Below are positions 3-36,217 of a stretch of DNA of 36,217 bases, one piece after another. Position 1 is the stretch's first letter. Every line of letters starts with the position of its first letter. Position numbers and translations under genes: made by a program. The stretch is from a virus, in IMG/VR virus record IMGVR_UViG_3300035659_000062, positions 1 to 36,217 of that record; one strand, 5' to 3'. Below the pieces are notes generated by a model that was given only the letters and a program-made list of their open reading frames with translations, did no database searches and had not been told where the DNA came from.

Positions 3-164
3 ACGCAAGCGTTGAGCGAACGCGTGCATTTCCTCGATGGCCGGTGGGTGAGCATCGACCTGCGGCACGACGCAATCGCACGCGCAGCGGAAGCCAGCAA
101 GCTACAGGTTCCGAGCGGTATCAGCAAAGCAGGCAACCCAGACTTTCCGATCTCAAAGCGTTGA
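3..164 (+). CDS. C-terminal end of an unidentified protein (partial)
   Basis: An open frame runs into the window from the left and ends at TGA 162-164, giving 53 residues (TQALSERVHFLDGRWVSIDL, then a helical stretch, ending PISKR). The composition is protein-like (Leu/Arg/Asp pattern, no runs of rare residues), unlike the competing frame over the same bases, which is Arg/Ser/Pro-rich. The start lies outside the window. No family recognised. Confidence 0.5.
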   Translation, partial: TQALSERVHFLDGRWVSIDLRHDAIARAAEASKLQVPSGISKAGNPDFPISKR

Positions 165-11717: not shown

Positions 11718-13472
11718 ATGAAGATCAGCGACCTCATCGACTCGACGCCGGAAGCAACCACGATGGCCGGCCTGGAAGCCGTCGCCGACAGGGACCCGGT
11801 GGTCTGGTCTGCACTCAACCGTCGCGTGAAGGGCGAGCCGCTCGTCTACGACAACTCGCGCAAGCTCTCGCCAGGGTCGCTCGGCGAGATCAAGAAGACG
11901 CTGCTCATGTCCGACTATGAGAAGGAGCTGCACTCGCGGCTGCTCCACCACAGGGCATTCCACAAGGAACCGCTGCGCGACCAGCACCCGTACAAGGTCT
12001 ACGAGAAGGGACGCCAGGTCGGCGTCACCGAGCTGTCCGCGACCGAGGTGTTCCACTTCCTCGCCACGCACCCGGGCACGAAGTGGATCACGACGTTCCC
12101 GCGCGACAAGCAGCTCACCGACTTCTCCAACACGCGCGTCGCTGCGGCGTACGCGGAGACGTCGCGGATGGCCGCGCTCGCCGGCACGCCGAACCAGGTG
12201 TTCACGAGGCGCGTCGGCGACAGCTACTGGATCTTCCGAAGCGCGTGGGAGGCGAACCTCGGCGAGGGCGTCGACGCGGACGGCGTCACGCTCGATGAGA
12301 TGGACCGCATGCGCGACAAGATCGAGTTCGCGTTCAAGGAGTCGCTCAAGTCGTCGAAGCACGGCCTGTTCCGTGCGATCTCCACGCCCACGATGCCAAA
12401 CCGCGGCATCGACGTGCCATTCCGCGCGAGCGACCAGCGCGTGTGGATGGTGAAGTGCGAGCGGTGCAACGAGTGGCAGGAGATCACGTGGAACGAGAAC
12501 ATCGTCCAGGTGAAGGACTTCCCGCTCGGCACGAAGGAATTGCCGCCGGAGAGCTACGACTACCTGTGCCGGAAGGTGACGTGCCGCGGAAAGCTCGACC
12601 GCGTGTTCTCTGGCCGCTGGGTGGCGCGCTACCCAGACCGCAACCACATCCGTGGCTACCACATGCCGCAGCTCATCGCGCCGTGGATCTCGGCGACGCG
12701 CGTGATGCAGGACAAGATCGACATGCGGTTCCTGGAGCTGTGGCTCTGTTACGTCTGCGGCGTCCCGGCTGCTGGCGAGCTGGAGATGATCACGGACGAG
12801 GACTGCGAGGCGGCGTGCTCGGGACACGCGCTGTTCACGTCGCGCACCAAGGACTACTCGCTCGTGTCGGTCGGCATCGACTGGGGCACCTTGAACTGGG
12901 TCGTGGTCATGGGTCGCAACTCGATCAACTCGCGGCCATACGTCCTCGGCATCGGCATCTTCGAGGACACGGCGAAGGAGCTGGAGAGCGCCGAGATGGT
13001 GTGGAGGTTCATCCAGCCGTTCGTCCCGGACATCACGATCGCGGACGCCGGCTACGGCAAGGATCGCAACTCGTACCTGATGCGCCGGCTATGCCCGACC
13101 GGGATCGAAGGCAGATTCTACGCGCAGTGGTACAACCCGTCGCTCAAGTCGAGCCGCACGTTCATCCCGGAATGGTCGGAGCCGCAGAGAGCCCGCGTGC
13201 TCGTGGACCGCACGCTGACGCTCAAGAACATCTGCCGCGCCGTCAAGGAGCGTGAGTTTGGCATCCCGAACCTCAGCATCGACAAGGTGCAGCTCCTGAT
13301 CCGTCACCTGAAGAACCTCGCGCCATTCAGGGAGCTGGACGAGGAGACCAAGGAGATCGTCGAGACGGTAAAGAGCGCCGGCGACGACCACCTCGCGCAC
13401 GCCCTCGCGTCCGCGCAGCTCGGCATGGAGAAGCTGTCCAAGACGAGCAAGTTCGGTTTCAGTTTCGAGTGA
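11718..13472 (+). CDS. terL: terminase large subunit (packaging ATPase/nuclease)
   Basis: A 584-residue packaging motor of the GpA-like type. The ATPase half has a deviant Walker A, KGRQVGVTE (97-105): the usual C-terminal lysine is valine (103) and a lysine stands at the front, as in lambda gpA. Walker B is GVTLDEMD (189-196) with the catalytic Glu194. A Cys cluster (CERC 247-250, then 284 and 289) forms a probable zinc knuckle. The RNase-H-type nuclease half has acidic residues in GIDWG (386-390), IADAGYGKD (441-449) and DDHLAHA (556-562). Start ATG 11718 lies 4 nt after the previous stop. It would cut concatemers and pump DNA into proheads. The nuclease and ATPase motifs look functional. 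Confidence 0.92.
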   Translation: MKISDLIDSTPEATTMAGLEAVADRDPVVWSALNRRVKGEPLVYDNSRKLSPGSLGEIKKTLLMSDYEKELHSRLLHHRAFHKEPLRDQHPYKVYEKGRQVGVTELSATEVFHFLATHPGTKWITTFPRDKQLTDFSNTRVAAAYAETSRMAALAGTPNQVFTRRVGDSYWIFRSAWEANLGEGVDADGVTLDEMDRMRDKIEFAFKESLKSSKHGLFRAISTPTMPNRGIDVPFRASDQRVWMVKCERCNEWQEITWNENIVQVKDFPLGTKELPPESYDYLCRKVTCRGKLDRVFSGRWVARYPDRNHIRGYHMPQLIAPWISATRVMQDKIDMRFLELWLCYVCGVPAAGELEMITDEDCEAACSGHALFTSRTKDYSLVSVGIDWGTLNWVVVMGRNSINSRPYVLGIGIFEDTAKELESAEMVWRFIQPFVPDITIADAGYGKDRNSYLMRRLCPTGIEGRFYAQWYNPSLKSSRTFIPEWSEPQRARVLVDRTLTLKNICRAVKEREFGIPNLSIDKVQLLIRHLKNLAPFRELDEETKEIVETVKSAGDDHLAHALASAQLGMEKLSKTSKFGFSFE

Positions 13473-16147: not shown

Positions 16148-16360
16148 ATGCTGTTTGGCATGAAGCCGCGACCACCACACGTCACGTTCAAGATCCGCGG
16201 CTGCTTCACGTTCGATCAACTCACTGACATCGTGCTCGTGCTGCCGTTTGGTGGCAGCGAACCGACCATGGAGAGATTGAATGTCATCACCGCGTTCGAT
16301 CGGAGAGGCTCGTCTGATTCGAGCTGGTGCACCGAGGTCGACGCGATCGTGATGACCTAG
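16148..16360 (+). CDS. hypothetical protein, 70 aa, last gene of the + arm
   Basis: Starts 4 nt after the previous stop. Strand-rich start (PPHVTFKIRGCFTFDQLTDI VLVLP region). Its TAG stop shares the bases CTAG (16357-16360) with the stop of the converging gene on the other strand. Not recognised. Confidence 0.6.
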   Translation: MLFGMKPRPPHVTFKIRGCFTFDQLTDIVLVLPFGGSEPTMERLNVITAFDRRGSSDSSWCTEVDAIVMT

Positions 16361-17229
16361 CGTTCGTTAACGGAGGCGAGGAGCGGCTGCAGCTTCTCCT
16401 GCTTCTCCTGCTTCTCATGCTCGACCAGCTCGTCCAGGAACGAACCCTCCATCAGGGCTCGCTCGGTGACCGCCACGAGCGCGTCATCCGCCCGGCCTGG
16501 GTCGATCTCCTCGGCCTCTGGGTCCACTCCCATCTTCTTCATCGCGCCGTTGATGAACGCCTTGAAGCTGACGTCGACCGCGCCCTTGTGCTTGTGCTGG
16601 ACCACGCCATGGACGTTGACATCGACGCGCTGCTTGTCGAGCCCGTAGATCTCGTCCTCGCGGCGGCTGTTCTCGCGAAACTCCTGCAGCCAGTCGCGCG
16701 CGGCGAGCCGCGTCCCGAGGTCGTCCTTGCCATCCTCGGCCAGCTCGATCGCCTTGCCGATCATCTTGGTGGCGAGCTGCTCGGCCTTGTCGGTGAGCCG
16801 CACGGTCTGCATGGTGCGGCGCTGACGCGACGCCTTGAAGCGCGAGACATTCTCCTCGTAGAGGCGCTTCTCGAACCGCTCGTCCTCCAACCACCTGGCG
16901 ACGGTGTGACGGTCGCGAGTCAGCTCCATCGCGATCTGGTGCTGCGGGATGCCCTGGAGCACCATCTGGAACGCGGCCTCACGCTCAGGGTTCCACCACG
17001 GGTCCTGTGGTGGAGGTTGTTCCCCGTCCTGCAGTGGTTGTGGTGGCGACTCCATCGGAGGCGGAGGCGTCGCGGCGAGCTGCGCGTCCATCACTCGCAT
17101 GCCCTTCTTTGGCTTGGTCGGCAGCCTGAACTTGGCCTTCGGCGGCGTGACGTCCTTCGACAGCTTCGCCCGACTCGGGCGCGAGCCTTGTCGTGGCGCG
17201 GTGGTGCGGTCGCCCTTGGCGACGCTCAT
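16357..17229 (-). CDS. terminase-small-subunit-like HTH protein
   Basis: A 290-residue protein starting at ATG 17229 (overlapping the previous stop); an upstream extension is a shadow. Residues 1-75 are basic and Pro-rich, probably disordered. Residues 82-115 (AAFQMVLQGIPQHQIAMELT, RDRHTVARWLED) form a helix-turn-helix of the kind found in small terminase subunits and phBC6A51-type homeodomains. Then come long helices (TDKAEQLATKMIGKAIELAE) and a helical acidic end with a Lys/Glu/Gln repeat (EHEKQEKQEKLQ). A small terminase would bind packaging-site DNA and recruit the large subunit. Being on the opposite strand about 3 kb from terL is unusual, so a regulatory role remains possible. Confidence 0.6.
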   Translation of the reverse strand: MSVAKGDRTTAPRQGSRPSRAKLSKDVTPPKAKFRLPTKPKKGMRVMDAQLAATPPPPMESPPQPLQDGEQPPPQDPWWNPEREAAFQMVLQGIPQHQIAMELTRDRHTVARWLEDERFEKRLYEENVSRFKASRQRRTMQTVRLTDKAEQLATKMIGKAIELAEDGKDDLGTRLAARDWLQEFRENSRREDEIYGLDKQRVDVNVHGVVQHKHKGAVDVSFKAFINGAMKKMGVDPEAEEIDPGRADDALVAVTERALMEGSFLDELVEHEKQEKQEKLQPLLASVNER

Positions 17230-17429
17230 GGCTTCACCGGCGGACCGAGCAACGTTCGAGTGTCGCGTCGTGCCGGTGAGGGCAGCCCGAGGTCGGGCTC
17301 GATCTCGGTCGCCGGCTCCAGCATCAGGAGCCACCCGCTGTTGCTCTGCTTCTTCGCGAGCGCCACGGCGCGCTCGTGGTTGTGCTTGTGCATGATGACG
17401 CCGGTCGGCATCTTTACGAAGCTGCTCAC
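17226..17429 (-). CDS. hypothetical protein, 67 aa
   Basis: GTG 17429 overlaps the previous stop (GTGA) and its own TGA overlaps the next ATG. N-terminal strand-helix (FVKMPTGVIMHKHNHERAVA), WLLMLEPATEI, then a Pro/Arg-rich tail. Coupling on both sides supports it. Unknown. Confidence 0.6.
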   Translation of the reverse strand: MSSFVKMPTGVIMHKHNHERAVALAKKQSNSGWLLMLEPATEIEPDLGLPSPARRDTRTLLGPPVKP

Positions 17430-17686
17430 GCTGCCCTCCGGGCGTCTTGAATGGCCGTCACGATCTGATCTCGATAGCGCTCAGGAAGCTGTAGGACGCG
17501 CCTACGCAGCTCGGCGACCGCGTAGTCGTGGTTCATCAGCTGGCGCCAGTACAGCTCCGTGGTGCGCGAGATGCCGAGCCTCGCGGCCACGTAGGAGGGC
17601 GGCATGCCGTTGGCCACGAGCCACTTCGCCTTGGCGAAGAGGTCGGGCTTCACGACCGGCTTCCTGCGGCGTCTGCGCCTGCTCAC
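17426..17686 (-). CDS. small HTH DNA-binding protein, 86 aa
   Basis: GTG 17686. The N-terminus is a run of arginines (SRRRRRRKPVVKP). A helix-turn-helix follows (AKAKWLVANGMPPSYVAARL, GISRTTELYWRQL), like small terminase or Xre-type readers, then a C-terminal helix. A -10-like TAGACT lies 7 nt upstream and there is no ribosome-binding site, so translation may be leaderless. It heads the three-gene unit with the terminase-small-like gene. Confidence 0.65.
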   Translation of the reverse strand: MSRRRRRRKPVVKPDLFAKAKWLVANGMPPSYVAARLGISRTTELYWRQLMNHDYAVAELRRRVLQLPERYRDQIVTAIQDARRAA

Positions 17687-17808: not shown

Positions 17809-18087
17809 CTATCGCTGCCCGTTGGTCAGGAAGTCGATGTCGCACTTCAGCTGCGTCTTCTTGCAGGCCGTCCACGCGATGCGCCTGATCGCGTCCGCGT
17901 TGGCGCCCTCGTTGCCGAGCGCCAGGCCCATGTCGCGGTGGTCGACGAACACCGTGAACACCACGCGCTTCGGCATGACGTCGCAATCGACACGCACGCA
18001 GTCCTCGTGCTCCACGATCGCCCGAACGTTCGACTCCACGATGCCGCGGAGGAACTCCACCTGCTGGTCTGCTGGTTTCTGCTTCAT
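17809..18087 (-). CDS. KhpA-like KH-domain RNA-binding protein, 92 aa
   Basis: ATG 18087 overlaps the previous stop. The sequence follows the KhpA/YlqC (UPF0109) pattern across its length: an N-terminal helix (EFLRGIVESNVRAIVEHEDC), strands VRVDC and VVFTVFVDHRDMG, the KH GxxG loop G-N-E-G (58-61) and a helix ANADAIRRIAWTACKK, ending in a last strand. KhpA is a single-KH protein of about 75-80 residues that binds structured RNA in bacteria. A phage-encoded version may modulate host or phage mRNAs. Family call is by eye. Confidence 0.65.
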   Translation of the reverse strand: MKQKPADQQVEFLRGIVESNVRAIVEHEDCVRVDCDVMPKRVVFTVFVDHRDMGLALGNEGANADAIRRIAWTACKKTQLKCDIDFLTNGQR

Positions 18088-18557
18088 GCTGGCTCCTTGA
18101 ACGCGTGTCGCTCGACGTCATCGATCCAGAACCCACGCACGTAGAGGTCATGCCTCCGCGTCCACTCTTCCCACAACACGTCTAGCTTTCGCTGCAGGTC
18201 GTCGAGCGGTGCTCGCTGCCGCTTGGTCTTGTCGGGGAAGACCTTGTCCCGCCACGTCTCCATCATCGCCTCGCCAAACTCCTCGTTCTCCGCGCGATCG
18301 CACGCGTTCTCGGCATCGAGTTGGTTGGGCATCGCCATCATCTCGTTGCGGAGGTAGCCGGTCTGGAACGTGTCGCCGTCGGTCCAGCCGACATCGGTAC
18401 GCCCGCACTTGATCGCCTCCTCACGCGTATCGAACACGTCAGTGAACGTGGCGTGCTCCGGCTCATCGAGGCCGGTGCCGCAGACCCACCCGTCCACGAA
18501 CAGCGCACGCTTCTTGACCTTGCGCGGGTATGGAGCCTTCTTCCGCTTGCGTTTCAT
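18084..18557 (-). CDS. hypothetical protein, 157 aa
   Basis: ATG 18557 overlaps the previous stop. Very basic start (MKRKRKKAPYPRKVKKRALF), then an acidic, aromatic body (WVCGTGLDEPEHATFTDVFD, TREEAIKCGRTDVGWTDGD) and helices rich in Glu and Arg near the end (LDVLWEEWTRRHDLYVRGFW). No motif recognised. Confidence 0.7.
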   Translation of the reverse strand: MKRKRKKAPYPRKVKKRALFVDGWVCGTGLDEPEHATFTDVFDTREEAIKCGRTDVGWTDGDTFQTGYLRNEMMAMPNQLDAENACDRAENEEFGEAMMETWRDKVFPDKTKRQRAPLDDLQRKLDVLWEEWTRRHDLYVRGFWIDDVERHAFKEPA

Positions 18558-18835
18558 TTCGACCGCCTGCGGAGGTCCAGCTCACAGGCGAGGGCATGAC
18601 CGTGCGGGAAACCGTCAGGCAGCACGACCTCGACCTCCTGGTCGATCCCGATGATGCGCGACTCGCGATCCACCATCACCGTCACGCGCCACAGCTTCGC
18701 GTCGGACTTCAGCTCCCCGGTAGAGACGCGTACCTCCGAGGGCCGCAGGGCATGGACGAAGGCGCGAGCGACGTCGTCCCATGGCTGTCCGTTGAGGAAC
18801 GTCAGGACCTCGATGCTCAGGTACCCGAGTCTCAT
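18554..18835 (-). CDS. hypothetical protein, 93 aa
   Basis: ATG 18835 overlaps the previous stop. Strand-rich second half (LWRVTVMVDRESRIIGIDQE, VEVVLPDGF) with an amphipathic helix before it. Function unknown. Confidence 0.65.
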   Translation of the reverse strand: MRLGYLSIEVLTFLNGQPWDDVARAFVHALRPSEVRVSTGELKSDAKLWRVTVMVDRESRIIGIDQEVEVVLPDGFPHGHALACELDLRRRSK

Positions 18836-19233
18836 CTCACACCTCCAGTGCCTTCCATCCCGTGCTTCTTGAACAGGGCGCGCTCGCGGTCGACCGCCTC
18901 GTCGCGACCCTGCCGTCGCCAGTGGTCGTCCTGACGCTTCTCCAGGCGCTCGCGCTCACGCTCGTTGTAGTCGCTGTTGCCCTTCACGATGGTTATGGGC
19001 GGCGGGATGCCGTTGATCTCGCGCGGCGTCATCTCGAACGTGCACGGCTCACCAGCCTTGCACTCAGGCTTGCCATCCTGGTCGAGGTGTCCGCCGTCCT
19101 CGGTGAGCATCCTGCCGCACCCACGGTCTTCACCGAGCGCCGGGTACCCGGTGTCCGTGTCCACGTAGACGAAACGCGTCTCGAAGTTGCCGCAGTTCGA
19201 GCAGTCAAAATCTATATAGCGTAGTTGCTTCAT
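18832..19233 (-). CDS. FmdB-like zinc-ribbon protein, 133 aa
   Basis: ATG 19233 overlaps the previous stop. The N-terminal zinc ribbon is MKQLRYIDFDCSNCGNFETR with a second Cys group further on (GCGRM, then ECKAGEPC). The layout strand-CxxC-strand resembles FmdB-type putative regulators. The C-terminal half is a charged helix (NERERERLEKRQDDHWRRQG). Likely nucleic-acid or protein binding. Confidence 0.65.
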   Translation of the reverse strand: MKQLRYIDFDCSNCGNFETRFVYVDTDTGYPALGEDRGCGRMLTEDGGHLDQDGKPECKAGEPCTFEMTPREINGIPPPITIVKGNSDYNERERERLEKRQDDHWRRQGRDEAVDRERALFKKHGMEGTGGVR

Positions 19234-20705: not shown

Positions 20706-20926
20706 TTCTTCCTCCGCAGCGGAACGTCGAGATCGAAGTCGTTGGTGCCATCGATCTTCGACCCTCCTCCGGCAACCTTGAGAGCGATGCCGTGCATGTC
20801 GATGACATCCTCGGCACCATCCTTGTGGAAGGCGTGCTCGTAGCCGGCCTCAGCGAGCAGCTCGCGGATCGAGGCGTAGACTTCCGGCGTGACCTCCAGG
20901 ATCGCGTACGTGCGCGTCGACATCAT
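20702..20926 (-). CDS. hypothetical protein, 74 aa
   Basis: Two adjacent ATGs (20926 and 20923); GGAGG at 20936-20932 fits the second better (8-nt spacing), while the first overlaps the upstream stop. Strand-helix-strand start (STRTYAILEVTPEVYASIRE), then HGIALKV and an acidic turn before a basic end (PLRRKK). Unknown. Confidence 0.65.
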   Translation of the reverse strand: MMSTRTYAILEVTPEVYASIRELLAEAGYEHAFHKDGAEDVIDMHGIALKVAGGGSKIDGTNDFDLDVPLRRKK

Positions 20927-21669
20927 GATGACCTCCGGTAGTTCTTGAGACCTTCCGGGACCGGCGTGAGCATCAGGAAATCCGACAGCAACATCACGAT
21001 CACATTGTCGTCGTCGGCCTCGCAGTTCGCGAGCTTGAAGATCGACGGAGGTGACAACGCCGGCCGGTGCTCGCTCAGCTCGCGCACCATCACGAGCCAA
21101 GGCTGGCGGTTACGGCGGAACACGAGCATCGGTTCCTTCTTGAGCTTGGTGTACCCGTTCTTTCCGACGATCTTCGGACACGTCTCCCAGCACTGCTCCC
21201 ACCACTTCACGATGCTCTTGTCGTGGTCGGAGCGAGCGCCGGTGACGAGGTCGTCGAGCACCCAACCCTCGCGATGCTTGCATTCGACGTGGAACGGGAA
21301 CGCCTTCTTCTTGCAGATGAGATCGGCGGTCGTGCCAAAGTCCTGCGAGCCACCCCAACCACCCGAGCCCGGCGTTCGACGCACGTGCTCTCCGCACCAC
21401 TTCGAGAACGCCTCCGCCACGTCCAGCTCGCCGCGGTTGCCCTTGCGGCGGCTGTTCTTGCGGCCACGGTCCTGCTCGACCTTCGCGATCGACGTGTGCG
21501 GCTCGCGCAACGCCTTCATGCGGCTCGGACCCTTACCGGACTTCTCGCGCAGCTTCTCCTTCGTGCGAGTGAGCTTCGCCTGGCGACGCTCCTCCAGACG
21601 CTGCACGTGGTACGGGTCGTACTCCGAAGCCTTGCGGTAATCGGTCGGATCTGGAGGCGGGCCGATCAC
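20923..21669 (-). CDS. PD-(D/E)XK nuclease, Holliday-junction-resolvase-like
   Basis: GTG 21669 overlaps the previous stop; 248 residues. Residues 1-75 are basic and helical. The nuclease core follows: RRKGNRGELDVAEAF (74-88, with Glu81), RRTPGSGG (98-105), ADLI with Asp116 and the ECK triad Glu129-Cys-Lys131 (FHVECKHREGW). This order (E, D, ExK) is that of Hjc/VRR-type PD-(D/E)XK nucleases that cut four-way junctions. The C-terminal 110 residues are family-specific. With RuvB, RecA and SbcCD it completes a recombination route; its substrate is inferred. Confidence 0.7.
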   Translation of the reverse strand: MIGPPPDPTDYRKASEYDPYHVQRLEERRQAKLTRTKEKLREKSGKGPSRMKALREPHTSIAKVEQDRGRKNSRRKGNRGELDVAEAFSKWCGEHVRRTPGSGGWGGSQDFGTTADLICKKKAFPFHVECKHREGWVLDDLVTGARSDHDKSIVKWWEQCWETCPKIVGKNGYTKLKKEPMLVFRRNRQPWLVMVRELSEHRPALSPPSIFKLANCEADDDNVIVMLLSDFLMLTPVPEGLKNYRRSS

Positions 21670-22189: not shown

Positions 22190-22299
22190 CGATTGATCCT
22201 CAACTTGAATTCGTGGACACCGGGATGCCCGAATGGCAGTTCGCAGTATTTCGAGTCACACGGGTCGTGAAACTGCACGCGCAGCTCCTTGACGGTCAT
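22186..22299 (-). CDS. very small protein, 37 aa
   Basis: Placed by 4-nt overlaps on both sides: ATG 22299 with the methyltransferase stop and TGA with the next ATG. Sequence MTVKELRVQFHDPCDSKYCE with a C-x5-C-x-pattern ending HEFKLRINR. The CxxxxxC...H...H arrangement is typical of the tiny zinc-binding proteins in phage genomes. Unknown. Confidence 0.55.
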   Translation of the reverse strand: MTVKELRVQFHDPCDSKYCELPFGHPGVHEFKLRINR

Positions 22300-22922
22300 C
22301 GCAGCTCCTTGCCGACGCAAGTCCAGCCCTCGCGACGGCGACGAGCGAACAGTTCCAAGTAGGGACCGTGGGCGAGCTTCTCCATGATGTCGTAGAACTC
22401 TTCCGGCTTCTTCGAGTGGATGGCTCTGCCCTTGCTGTCCGAAGGAGCCTTGGCGTCGAACGTCGACCGGATGTTCTTCGCCTTGATCAGCTGCGAGTAG
22501 CGACCACGCGTGGCGAGGATCGCGGTCTCGTGCTCGCCGCGCACGAGGCGCCCCATCCCGAAGTGACGCTTCCCGTTCTTGGTGCGCTTGCACCACACGA
22601 TCTCTGCTTTGGGGACGAAGCCCCAGGCACGTGCCACCTGGTATGCTTCCTCAACCATCGCACCGACGCGCCAGAGCGCCAGGATCGCGTCGTCGGCGAC
22701 GTTGTGCCTCAGAAGGTCTCCGCCCTCGAAGTCGAACCCTGCGACCTCTGCGATGGTGAGCAGGTCGTAGTTCTTCTCCGCGCCGCGGCTCGCGCCTGGT
22801 AACGAGTCCTTGAATGGCCACGGCACGTCGGCGCACACGACACTGAACGGGCGTTGGTCGTCCAGCGTGAACGACGCGCCGCCGGTGAAGGCCAGCACGC
22901 GAGAGAGGACATTCGGCGTCAT
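22296..22922 (-). CDS. MT-A70 family adenine methyltransferase
   Basis: ATG 22922 overlaps the previous stop; the longer frame to 23474 is a shadow. A 208-residue MT-A70 protein: catalytic motif ADVPWPF (31-37, D-V-P-W instead of the usual D-P-P-W), EIVWCKRTKNGKRHFGMGRL (around 107-126), EHETAILATRG, and HSKKPEEFYDIME, the usual KP segment for S-adenosylmethionine binding. It would add a methyl group to N6 of adenine, most likely in DNA in a phage setting, which could protect phage DNA from host restriction. No restriction partner is seen. Confidence 0.85.
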   Translation of the reverse strand: MTPNVLSRVLAFTGGASFTLDDQRPFSVVCADVPWPFKDSLPGASRGAEKNYDLLTIAEVAGFDFEGGDLLRHNVADDAILALWRVGAMVEEAYQVARAWGFVPKAEIVWCKRTKNGKRHFGMGRLVRGEHETAILATRGRYSQLIKAKNIRSTFDAKAPSDSKGRAIHSKKPEEFYDIMEKLAHGPYLELFARRRREGWTCVGKELR

Positions 22923-23398
22923 GGCTTGGGTTCCTCCGGCAGCTTTGGTTGGAGCCACTCCTTCATCGAGTCCGAACGGAATGAGAAGCTGACATCCTCG
23001 TCGGTTGGCAACGTTACTACGACGTGCGACTCGCCGCTCGACCTGCTCGTAGCGGTCACCGAGCAGAGGCTGTAGTAGTCGTTCTTGAACCTGGTCGGAC
23101 TCTCCGGCGTGCGCGCGAACCACCGGTAGGCGACCTTGCGATCGGACTCCCACTCGAAGACGAGAGCGCGCGCGTCGCAGTAGCTGAGCGCACGGCAGAT
23201 CGCAGGACCACTCGTCTCCCAGAACGCTGGTCCGGGCGCGAACTTTCCTCGGAACGGATCCGTCCAGTGATTCAGCCAGCTCGTGTACTGCGCGAACATG
23301 TTGACGGCGACGCGGATCGGACCTCGCGACTCCTGCCACGTGACGATCGGCTTCTCGTGGAAGTCGGTGAACTCCGGCTTGTAGACCTCGACGATCAC
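22919..23398 (-). CDS. hypothetical protein, 159 aa
   Basis: GTG 23398 overlaps the previous stop. Strand-rich with many aromatic residues (VEVYKPEFTDFHEKPIVTWQ, YTSWLNHWTDPFRGKFAPGP), DARALVFEWESDRKVAYRWF, and a terminal helix with Pro-rich end. No family recognised. Confidence 0.7.
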   Translation of the reverse strand: MIVEVYKPEFTDFHEKPIVTWQESRGPIRVAVNMFAQYTSWLNHWTDPFRGKFAPGPAFWETSGPAICRALSYCDARALVFEWESDRKVAYRWFARTPESPTRFKNDYYSLCSVTATSRSSGESHVVVTLPTDEDVSFSFRSDSMKEWLQPKLPEEPKP

Positions 23399-28046: not shown

Positions 28047-28073
28047 GTCCGTTCTCCTTGGTTTTTCGAGCAG

Positions 28074-28145
28074 CGTCCCTGGTTGGAATCGAACCAACGT
28101 CGTCCGATAGAAGGTCGGACATTCTTGCCGCTGAACTACAGGGAC
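28074..28145 (-). tRNA. tRNA, anticodon TTC by position (Glu), atypical loop
   Basis: A 72-nt cloverleaf is read from 28145 to 28074. Acceptor stem GTCCCTG/CAGGGAC is perfect; D arm GTTC/GAAT has loop AGCGGCAA; anticodon stem TCCGA/TCGGA has a 7-nt loop CCTTCTA; T arm GTTGG/CCAAC has TTCGATT. The discriminator is G and CCA is not encoded. By position the anticodon is TTC (Glu), but base 33 is C rather than the near-universal U and base 37 is U rather than a purine. A one-base shift would give TCT (Arg). It lies inside the - strand operon. Confidence 0.75.
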
Positions 28146-35058: not shown

Positions 35059-35511
35059 CTACATCGAATCTTTGGTACCGCGCTCCATCAGCGCAGTCTT
35101 CGTCAGCCCCATCAGGCTCCATCGCTTCTCTGCAATCGCCTCGACGGCGCTCTTGAGCCTCTGGTGCATGGTCTCCGCGTCCATGCGCTCGCGGTACGCC
35201 TTGCGCATCCTCGGTTGCTTCTTCACCGCCATCTTGATGGTGGTCTCGGTGGCCTTCGGGTTCTTCTCGCGCAGCTCGCCGTAGAGGTCCTCCTCCGCGT
35301 TGTGCTCGTCGTGCATAGCCTCGCGCAGGCGAGCACCCGCGTGGTCGCGCAGCGCCATGTACCAGCTCAGGAGGGCTGGCAGGCGACGCAGCTCCTTGTC
35401 GAGGTCGGAGCTGATCTTGGCATCGCGCTGCGGGTCCACCTCGATGACCTTGTTGGTCGACGGGTGGATCGCCTGGATCGGGCCGGAGGTTCGCCTCTCC
35501 CAGAACTTCAT
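35059..35511 (-). CDS. UvsY-like recombination mediator candidate, 150 aa
   Basis: ATG 35511 overlaps the receiver-gene stop. After a short N-terminus it is one long helical bundle: DLDKELRRLPALLSWYMALR, DHAGARLREAMHDEHNAEED, LYGELREKNPKATETTIKMA, and a final helix LKSAVEAIAEKRWSLMGL. Size, helix content and the L-S-W-Y-x-x-L pattern match UvsY-type mediators, which load UvsX on SSB-coated DNA. The position next to SSB and recA supports it. Identity by sequence is weak. Confidence 0.55.
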   Translation of the reverse strand: MKFWERRTSGPIQAIHPSTNKVIEVDPQRDAKISSDLDKELRRLPALLSWYMALRDHAGARLREAMHDEHNAEEDLYGELREKNPKATETTIKMAVKKQPRMRKAYRERMDAETMHQRLKSAVEAIAEKRWSLMGLTKTALMERGTKDSM

Positions 35512-35903
35512 GACGCCGAGCCTCGCACAGGGATCTGACGTCGGGATTCCAGCAGCTCGTCCAGCGTCTTGAGGATCTTGCTGTTCCACACCGGCTTCTC
35601 CAGCCAAGGCACGTGATCAGCGACGTCGGGTTGAGTGCCGGACACGAACAGGAACCGATTCTCCAAGCCTGGCTGCATCGACTTCGCCAGCTCGTAGACC
35701 TGCCCACCATTGCCTCCATCCCCGAGGTCCCAGTCGCTCACCACAACATCGAACTGGAACGTCTCCAGCGCGATGCGAGCACGCGTGACGTCAGGGACGG
35801 AGGTCACCTCGTAGCCACCGATCTTGAGACCGCGTGTCACCGGTCCGCGGACCTTGTCGTCATCCTCCACGTACAGGAGGTGGTAGCCGTCGTAGTCCTT
35901 CAC
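35508..35903 (-). CDS. stand-alone response-regulator receiver domain
   Basis: GTG 35903 overlaps the previous stop; 131 residues with only a receiver domain. All family positions are present: acidic pocket YVEDDD (11-16), phosphate-accepting Asp57 in VVVSDWDL (53-60), Ser88 in LFVSGT (85-90) and Lys103 in LEKPV (101-105). No DNA-binding or enzyme domain follows. It could be phosphorylated by a host histidine kinase and act as a CheY-like or phosphate-sink protein. Confidence 0.85.
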   Translation of the reverse strand: MKDYDGYHLLYVEDDDKVRGPVTRGLKIGGYEVTSVPDVTRARIALETFQFDVVVSDWDLGDGGNGGQVYELAKSMQPGLENRFLFVSGTQPDVADHVPWLEKPVWNSKILKTLDELLESRRQIPVRGSAS

Positions 35904-36217
35904 GATTGCTCCTTGACCTTGAAGGTCTCCGACGTGACGTGGTCCTCCATCCAATACCCGCCAAGCTCGTCGGCCATGTTCACGGCCATCTGCTTGGCGA
36001 CATCCCCATTCTCTGCCTCGACCTCGACGACCGCGCGATGCTCGATCTCGCGAGTGATCGTCACCTCATACTTACGCAGGGCATTCACCGGCTTGTTGGG
36101 TGACACGTCAGCCACAACTGCATCAGCGAGCGCCTCCTGGATGTACTTCATGGCTTGCTTCACCGTGCAGCCGAGCTTCAGCGCGATCCAGTCCGCCTTG
36201 CTTGTTCGGGTCTTCGA
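35900..36217 (-). CDS. DpnD/PcfM-like protein, N-terminus outside window (partial)
   Basis: The frame is open to the right edge; the first visible residues (SKTRTSKADWIALKLGCTVK) suggest a helix-turn-helix upstream of the part starting at ATG 36151. The C-terminal half (KYEVTITREIEHRAVVEVEA, ENGDVAKQMAVNMA) resembles the DpnD/PcfM small-domain pattern. Stop overlaps the receiver start. Role unknown. Confidence 0.6.
   Translation of the reverse strand, partial: SKTRTSKADWIALKLGCTVKQAMKYIQEALADAVVADVSPNKPVNALRKYEVTITREIEHRAVVEVEAENGDVAKQMAVNMADELGGYWMEDHVTSETFKVKEQS

Follow-up and report, generated by a model that had tools for sequence, protein, structure and literature searches.

KhpA (YlqC, UPF0109; PF13083) and KhpB (EloR/Jag) have been reported as RNA- and sRNA-associated proteins in several bacteria, including Gram-positive species in which little is known about general RNA chaperones, and in vivo crosslinking to RNA has been obtained for the B. 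subtilis KhpA (PMC12456014). KhpA of S. pneumoniae exhibits the KH-II order of secondary-structure elements with a GxxG loop, and Ile61 on its helix 3 makes a dimer contact, while KhpB carries further domains, including R3H (PMC6403258). The KH domains of S3 and the GTPase Era are likewise parts of larger proteins. Here, we examined a 92-residue protein encoded in a 36-kb virus record (36,217 nucleotides), the whole of which is referred to as the window. The protein shares its length, element order, G-x-x-G sequence and helix-3 dimer residue with bacterial KhpA, and is approximately 29% identical to actinobacterial KhpA. It differs from bacterial KhpA in approximately 10 additional N-terminal residues, one additional residue before the last strand, and a loop containing no Lys or Arg. 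Unlike KhpB, it consists of a KH domain alone, and it gave no Pfam match to the families of S3 and Era.

The open reading frame was confirmed at the position where a KhpA-like single KH protein had been predicted, on the minus strand, which the original prediction had left unstated (Table 1). The profile search that it proposed against KH/UPF0109 gave a single Pfam family, KH_KhpA-B (PF13083), at 41.7 bits (E = 1.1e-10), which exceeds the curated cut-off of 32.1; four syntenic homologues (G008, L200, L201 and L203) likewise exceeded this cut-off. The best NCBIfam matches were the two KhpA-type equivalogs PRK02821 and PRK00468, which at 31.2 and 24.4 bits fell far below the cut-off of 106, and no credible family was found for the protein in PHROGs v4. 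The rpsP/ffh/rimM/trmD adjacency seen at the bacterial khpA loci examined was absent, the neighbors of the KH gene in the window being phage genes. The protein has a net charge of 0 and a pI of 6.7. We regard it as a KH protein of the KhpA type with a variant loop. The gene starts with an ATG preceded by an AAGGAG Shine-Dalgarno sequence, and this start codon shares an ATGA overlap with the stop codon of the upstream gene, so that the two genes are probably co-translated. The 93-residue frame lying next upstream has no counterpart in the corresponding slot of G008. An antisense frame of similar length overlaps the KH frame; no support was obtained for it as a gene, and it is probably a by-product of high GC content. 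Bacterial contamination as the source of the window was also rejected, because the terminase and neighboring genes are phage-like and common to other viral contigs. Hints of the host conflict, as the terminase and AAA matches indicate different isolates.

Table 1. Positions of the features discussed, in the coordinates of the window unless residues are stated.
Feature	Position	Strand	Remarks
KhpA-type single KH protein, 92 aa	17809..18087 (stop codon included)	minus	PF13083 match; AlphaFold2 model; G008 orthologue
Predicted elements of the KH protein	residues: helix 5-24; strands 32-38, 41-48; helix 50-57; loop G58-N-E-G61; helix 59-75; strand 81-88		AlphaFold2
Upstream gene, 157 aa, function not assigned	18084..18557	minus	phrog_1672; stop overlaps KH start (ATGA)
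93-aa ORF, function not assigned	18554..18835	minus	
Conserved syntenic neighbor, function not assigned	18832..19233	minus	in most relatives, upstream of the KH gene or the empty slot
Small helix-turn-helix protein	17426..17686	minus	downstream neighbor, conserved among near relatives
HTH protein, probable terminase small subunit	16357..17334	minus	homologue in L201 immediately precedes TerL and hits terminase small subunit families
Terminase large subunit	11718..13472	plus	query for finding relatives; nearest isolates SPO1-like phages, 35-38% identity
PDDEXK / RusA-like nuclease	20923..21669	minus	conserved synteny marker at the opposite side of the slot
Antisense ORF over the KH frame	17822..18100	plus	
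MT-A70 family protein	22296..22937	minus	probable adenine methyltransferase, going by the Pfam name
tRNA-Glu (TTC)	28073..28145	minus	sole Rfam match within the window
Weak response-regulator receiver match	35508..35954	minus	26.2 bits against a cut-off of 30.2
CCTGAAC copies	218, 229, 1410, 1421, 3095; 34638, 34648	plus; minus	often doubled, spacing 10-11 bases

The KH gene occupies the same position, just before the terminase genes, in four relatives whose terminases are 51–65% identical to that of the window. In G008 (terminase 65%), an orthologue of 52% identity lies between the same two conserved neighbors and aligns over 87 residues without internal gaps, which makes the frame more than a chance occurrence and marks it as a genuine gene of the phage. 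In L200 and L201 (terminase 55%), the KH gene is approximately 33% identical and follows the order nuclease, homologue of the 18832 gene, KH, probable small terminase and large terminase, and in L203 (terminase 51%) it is located between SbcC and the small terminase. No KH match was found in the slot of G002, G006, G007 and G041, all of which cover it, nor was one found in G044; most of the contigs are fragments. Within each of the two main branches of the terminase tree, contigs with and without the gene were intermixed. An old gene followed by losses is the simplest reading of this patchy presence, which could also arise from repeated arrival of a KH gene at one slot. A KH tree, constructed from few columns, grouped the window, G008, L200 and L201 with good support and placed L203 separately. 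Peptide-pattern searches for close relatives gave G008 alone among viral contigs and none among genome contigs. The patchy presence, together with the changed loop and a dN/dS of approximately 0.58, which is rather high and estimated from a single pair, would fit an acquired bacterial khpA that is drifting without selection as a non-functional remnant. This we consider very unlikely, since the frame is open, has a good ribosome-binding site and is coupled through ATGA, the gene takes the same slot in each main branch of the terminase tree, and the gap-free G008 orthologue differs from the window gene mostly at third codon positions.

The fold of the KH protein was modeled with AlphaFold2 (pLDDT 89, pTM 0.78) using an input alignment of seven sequences, two from phages and five from actinobacteria, so that the model was partly guided by KhpA relatives. 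The predicted order of elements was H-E-E-H-H-E, which is the KH-II order; a KH-II fold is thus predicted, and the arrangement whose absence had been proposed as grounds for rejecting the assignment is retained in the model. The best matches among solved structures were the KH-II domains of S3, Era and KhpB/EloR (9lrg), all with a Z of about 10, and the KhpB/EloR entries 9lrg, 9lri and 3gku spanned 8.9–10.2. The Foldseek E-values were modest, with one passing 0.001, as is expected for such a small domain.

The loop that the original prediction had described as a retained RNA-binding loop was retained in part. Both glycines are present in the window protein (G58-N-E-G61), as they are in all five syntenic homologues, but the basic residue found in nearly all relatives is missing. 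Lys or Arg stands between the loop glycines in 48 of the 50 aligned bacterial and viral relatives, the exceptions being the window (GNEG) and G008 (GEGG); because the first search pattern required a basic residue at position 55, counts there are biased, although it left the loop itself free. What is new here, as read from the alignment, is this loop without the usual basic residue in the window protein and G008. The farther syntenic homologues L200, L201 and L203 carry GRDG, GRDG and GKEG, and since these retain Lys or Arg, its loss seems to have occurred in the branch leading to the window and G008, the only two sequences with the unusual loop. Certain KH domains of eukaryotes probably contain no basic loop residue either. 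A GDDG form of the loop, with two aspartates, abolishes binding of target RNA according to work cited in PMC6403258, and GNEG is a milder change than GDDG. As the loop contains no Lys or Arg, RNA binding of the window protein is not to be assumed and is less safe than had been predicted, and we reasonably infer from the loop sequence that it may be weak or altered relative to that of the host KhpA. Residue I70 aligns with the helix-3 dimer position of KhpA, where I, L or V occurs in all 50 aligned sequences, and is compatible with a KhpA-type dimer as far as the alignment indicates.

Our tentative proposal, to which we give somewhat less than an even chance, is that the protein is a small, dimeric phage-lineage version of KhpA that associates with short single-stranded RNA and thereby influences RNA events in infection. 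The dimer would be the working form, and the RNA would be held in the groove of helix 3 and strand 3, with a binding that may be weaker or of a different preference than that of the host KhpA; transcripts or RNA complexes would thereby be modulated during infection. The Pfam match, the predicted KH-II fold, the helix-3 Ile and the synteny in five phage contigs argue for a KhpA role. The loop without a basic residue, the net charge of 0 and the four near relatives with no gene in the slot count against it. In the window and G008 the basic loop residue is gone while the helix-3 Ile is kept, which would also fit a dimer decoy, in which the KhpA dimer face was kept and strong RNA contact was lost, so that the protein would pair with the host KhpA or KhpB and blunt or redirect the KhpA/KhpB RNA network of the host. 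Such a decoy accords with S. pneumoniae KhpA, for which dimerization is separable from RNA binding and which binds the KH-II domain of EloR (PMC6403258). However, L200, L201 and L203 keep their Lys or Arg, and the loss of RNA contact is therefore not lineage-wide; moreover, every KhpA in the alignment has a hydrophobic dimer residue, which is therefore no special sign. We regard the decoy as rather unlikely. A fuller version, in which the phage lineage turned an acquired KhpA into a decoy, retained the dimer face, lost the basic loop in one branch, and disabled or redirected the host KhpA/KhpB network, appears quite improbable.

A different function is suggested by the gene's surroundings. The KH gene resides inside a long minus-strand block that also encodes SbcC, SbcD, a RecA/UvsX-like recombinase, a single-strand DNA-binding protein and a nuclease, and other viral KH genes were observed near genes for DNA polymerase, helicase, exonuclease, SMC-like ATPase, thymidylate synthase and HU. 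The KH domain might thus bind single-stranded DNA or RNA primers in phage DNA metabolism, as a replication or recombination factor. These neighbors may, however, merely mark a block of early expression; they were picked by hand with no random set for comparison, and relatives that retain the same recombination genes do not carry the KH gene. This function is considered unlikely.

The KhpA-like protein had also been suggested to act on the phage's own leaders, at 1407 and 34632. The word CCTGAAC occurs in 10 copies in the window, 7 of which lie just before ribosome-binding sites, whereas 60 permuted control words averaged 0.73, the highest value being 4. It was likewise detected in the leaders of G004, G006 and G008, and may represent a leader or promoter element associated with gene starts. 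Among near relatives, the word and the KH gene coincide in part: both are present in the window and G008 and both are absent from G002 and G041, while in G007, where there is no KH gene, a single leader copy corresponds to the chance level. The word does not track the KH gene, as it is present in leaders of G006, the slot of which contains no KH gene, and absent from all leaders of G043, a 118-kb relative with a KH gene. A link between the two in one branch, for which the partial agreement among near relatives leaves some room, was not supported. The two leaders folded no better than shuffled sequences (z of −1.1 and −0.7, respectively), and Rfam detected a tRNA and no leader RNA element in the window. 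On these grounds, action on the phage's own leaders is not supported.

The literature gave no paper describing a phage KhpA-like protein. This agrees with the earlier statement that no characterized phage homologue is known, but uncharacterized viral homologues are fairly common: KhpA-like proteins were also found in the isolated jumbo phage Tunturi_5 and in more than 30 IMG/VR contigs. Tunturi_5 gp147 (XOB77590.1), from a Tunturiibacter phage, was the one credible match among annotated isolates in the phage record collection. It is also of the KhpA type, is annotated as hypothetical, and goes unmentioned in the paper on this phage (PMC11924767). It differs from the window protein, to which it is 26% identical, in its canonical GKQG loop and unrelated gene context. 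Six further KhpA matches in this collection were inspected, of which three (L119, L120 and L122) had Ffh and S16 nearby, one (L124) had S16, and two had neither in the stretch read, these neighbors being named from sequence; the first four, deposited as phage, are probably bacterial DNA carrying the khpA locus. All 26 IMG/VR contigs found by a KhpA-type pattern exceeded the Pfam cut-off, and a terminase match was present in 11 of them. None had Ffh, S16, RimM or TrmD near the KH gene, though some of the stretches covered were short on one side, while three bacterial control loci did carry neighbors of this type. A second pattern, matching the DMGL form of the window, gave approximately 10 more contigs, including L168 and L181, which are relatives of the window phage. 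No PHROG family (PHROGs v4) was matched by the viral homologues tested, and such homologues have therefore probably been overlooked in annotation. The presence of a KhpA-type protein at a constant position in a phage family suggests that the KhpA/KhpB RNA network matters in infection, and the natural variants with and without the basic loop could help to show which part of the protein is responsible for its activity. Among the viral contigs, L134, L136, L141 and L149 share the gene order around KH; its neighbors in L134 are thymidylate synthase ThyX, Hsp20 and HU by Pfam, and those in the other three are similar by sequence. In L143, another viral contig with a KH gene, an MT-A70 gene lies nearby, as in the window.
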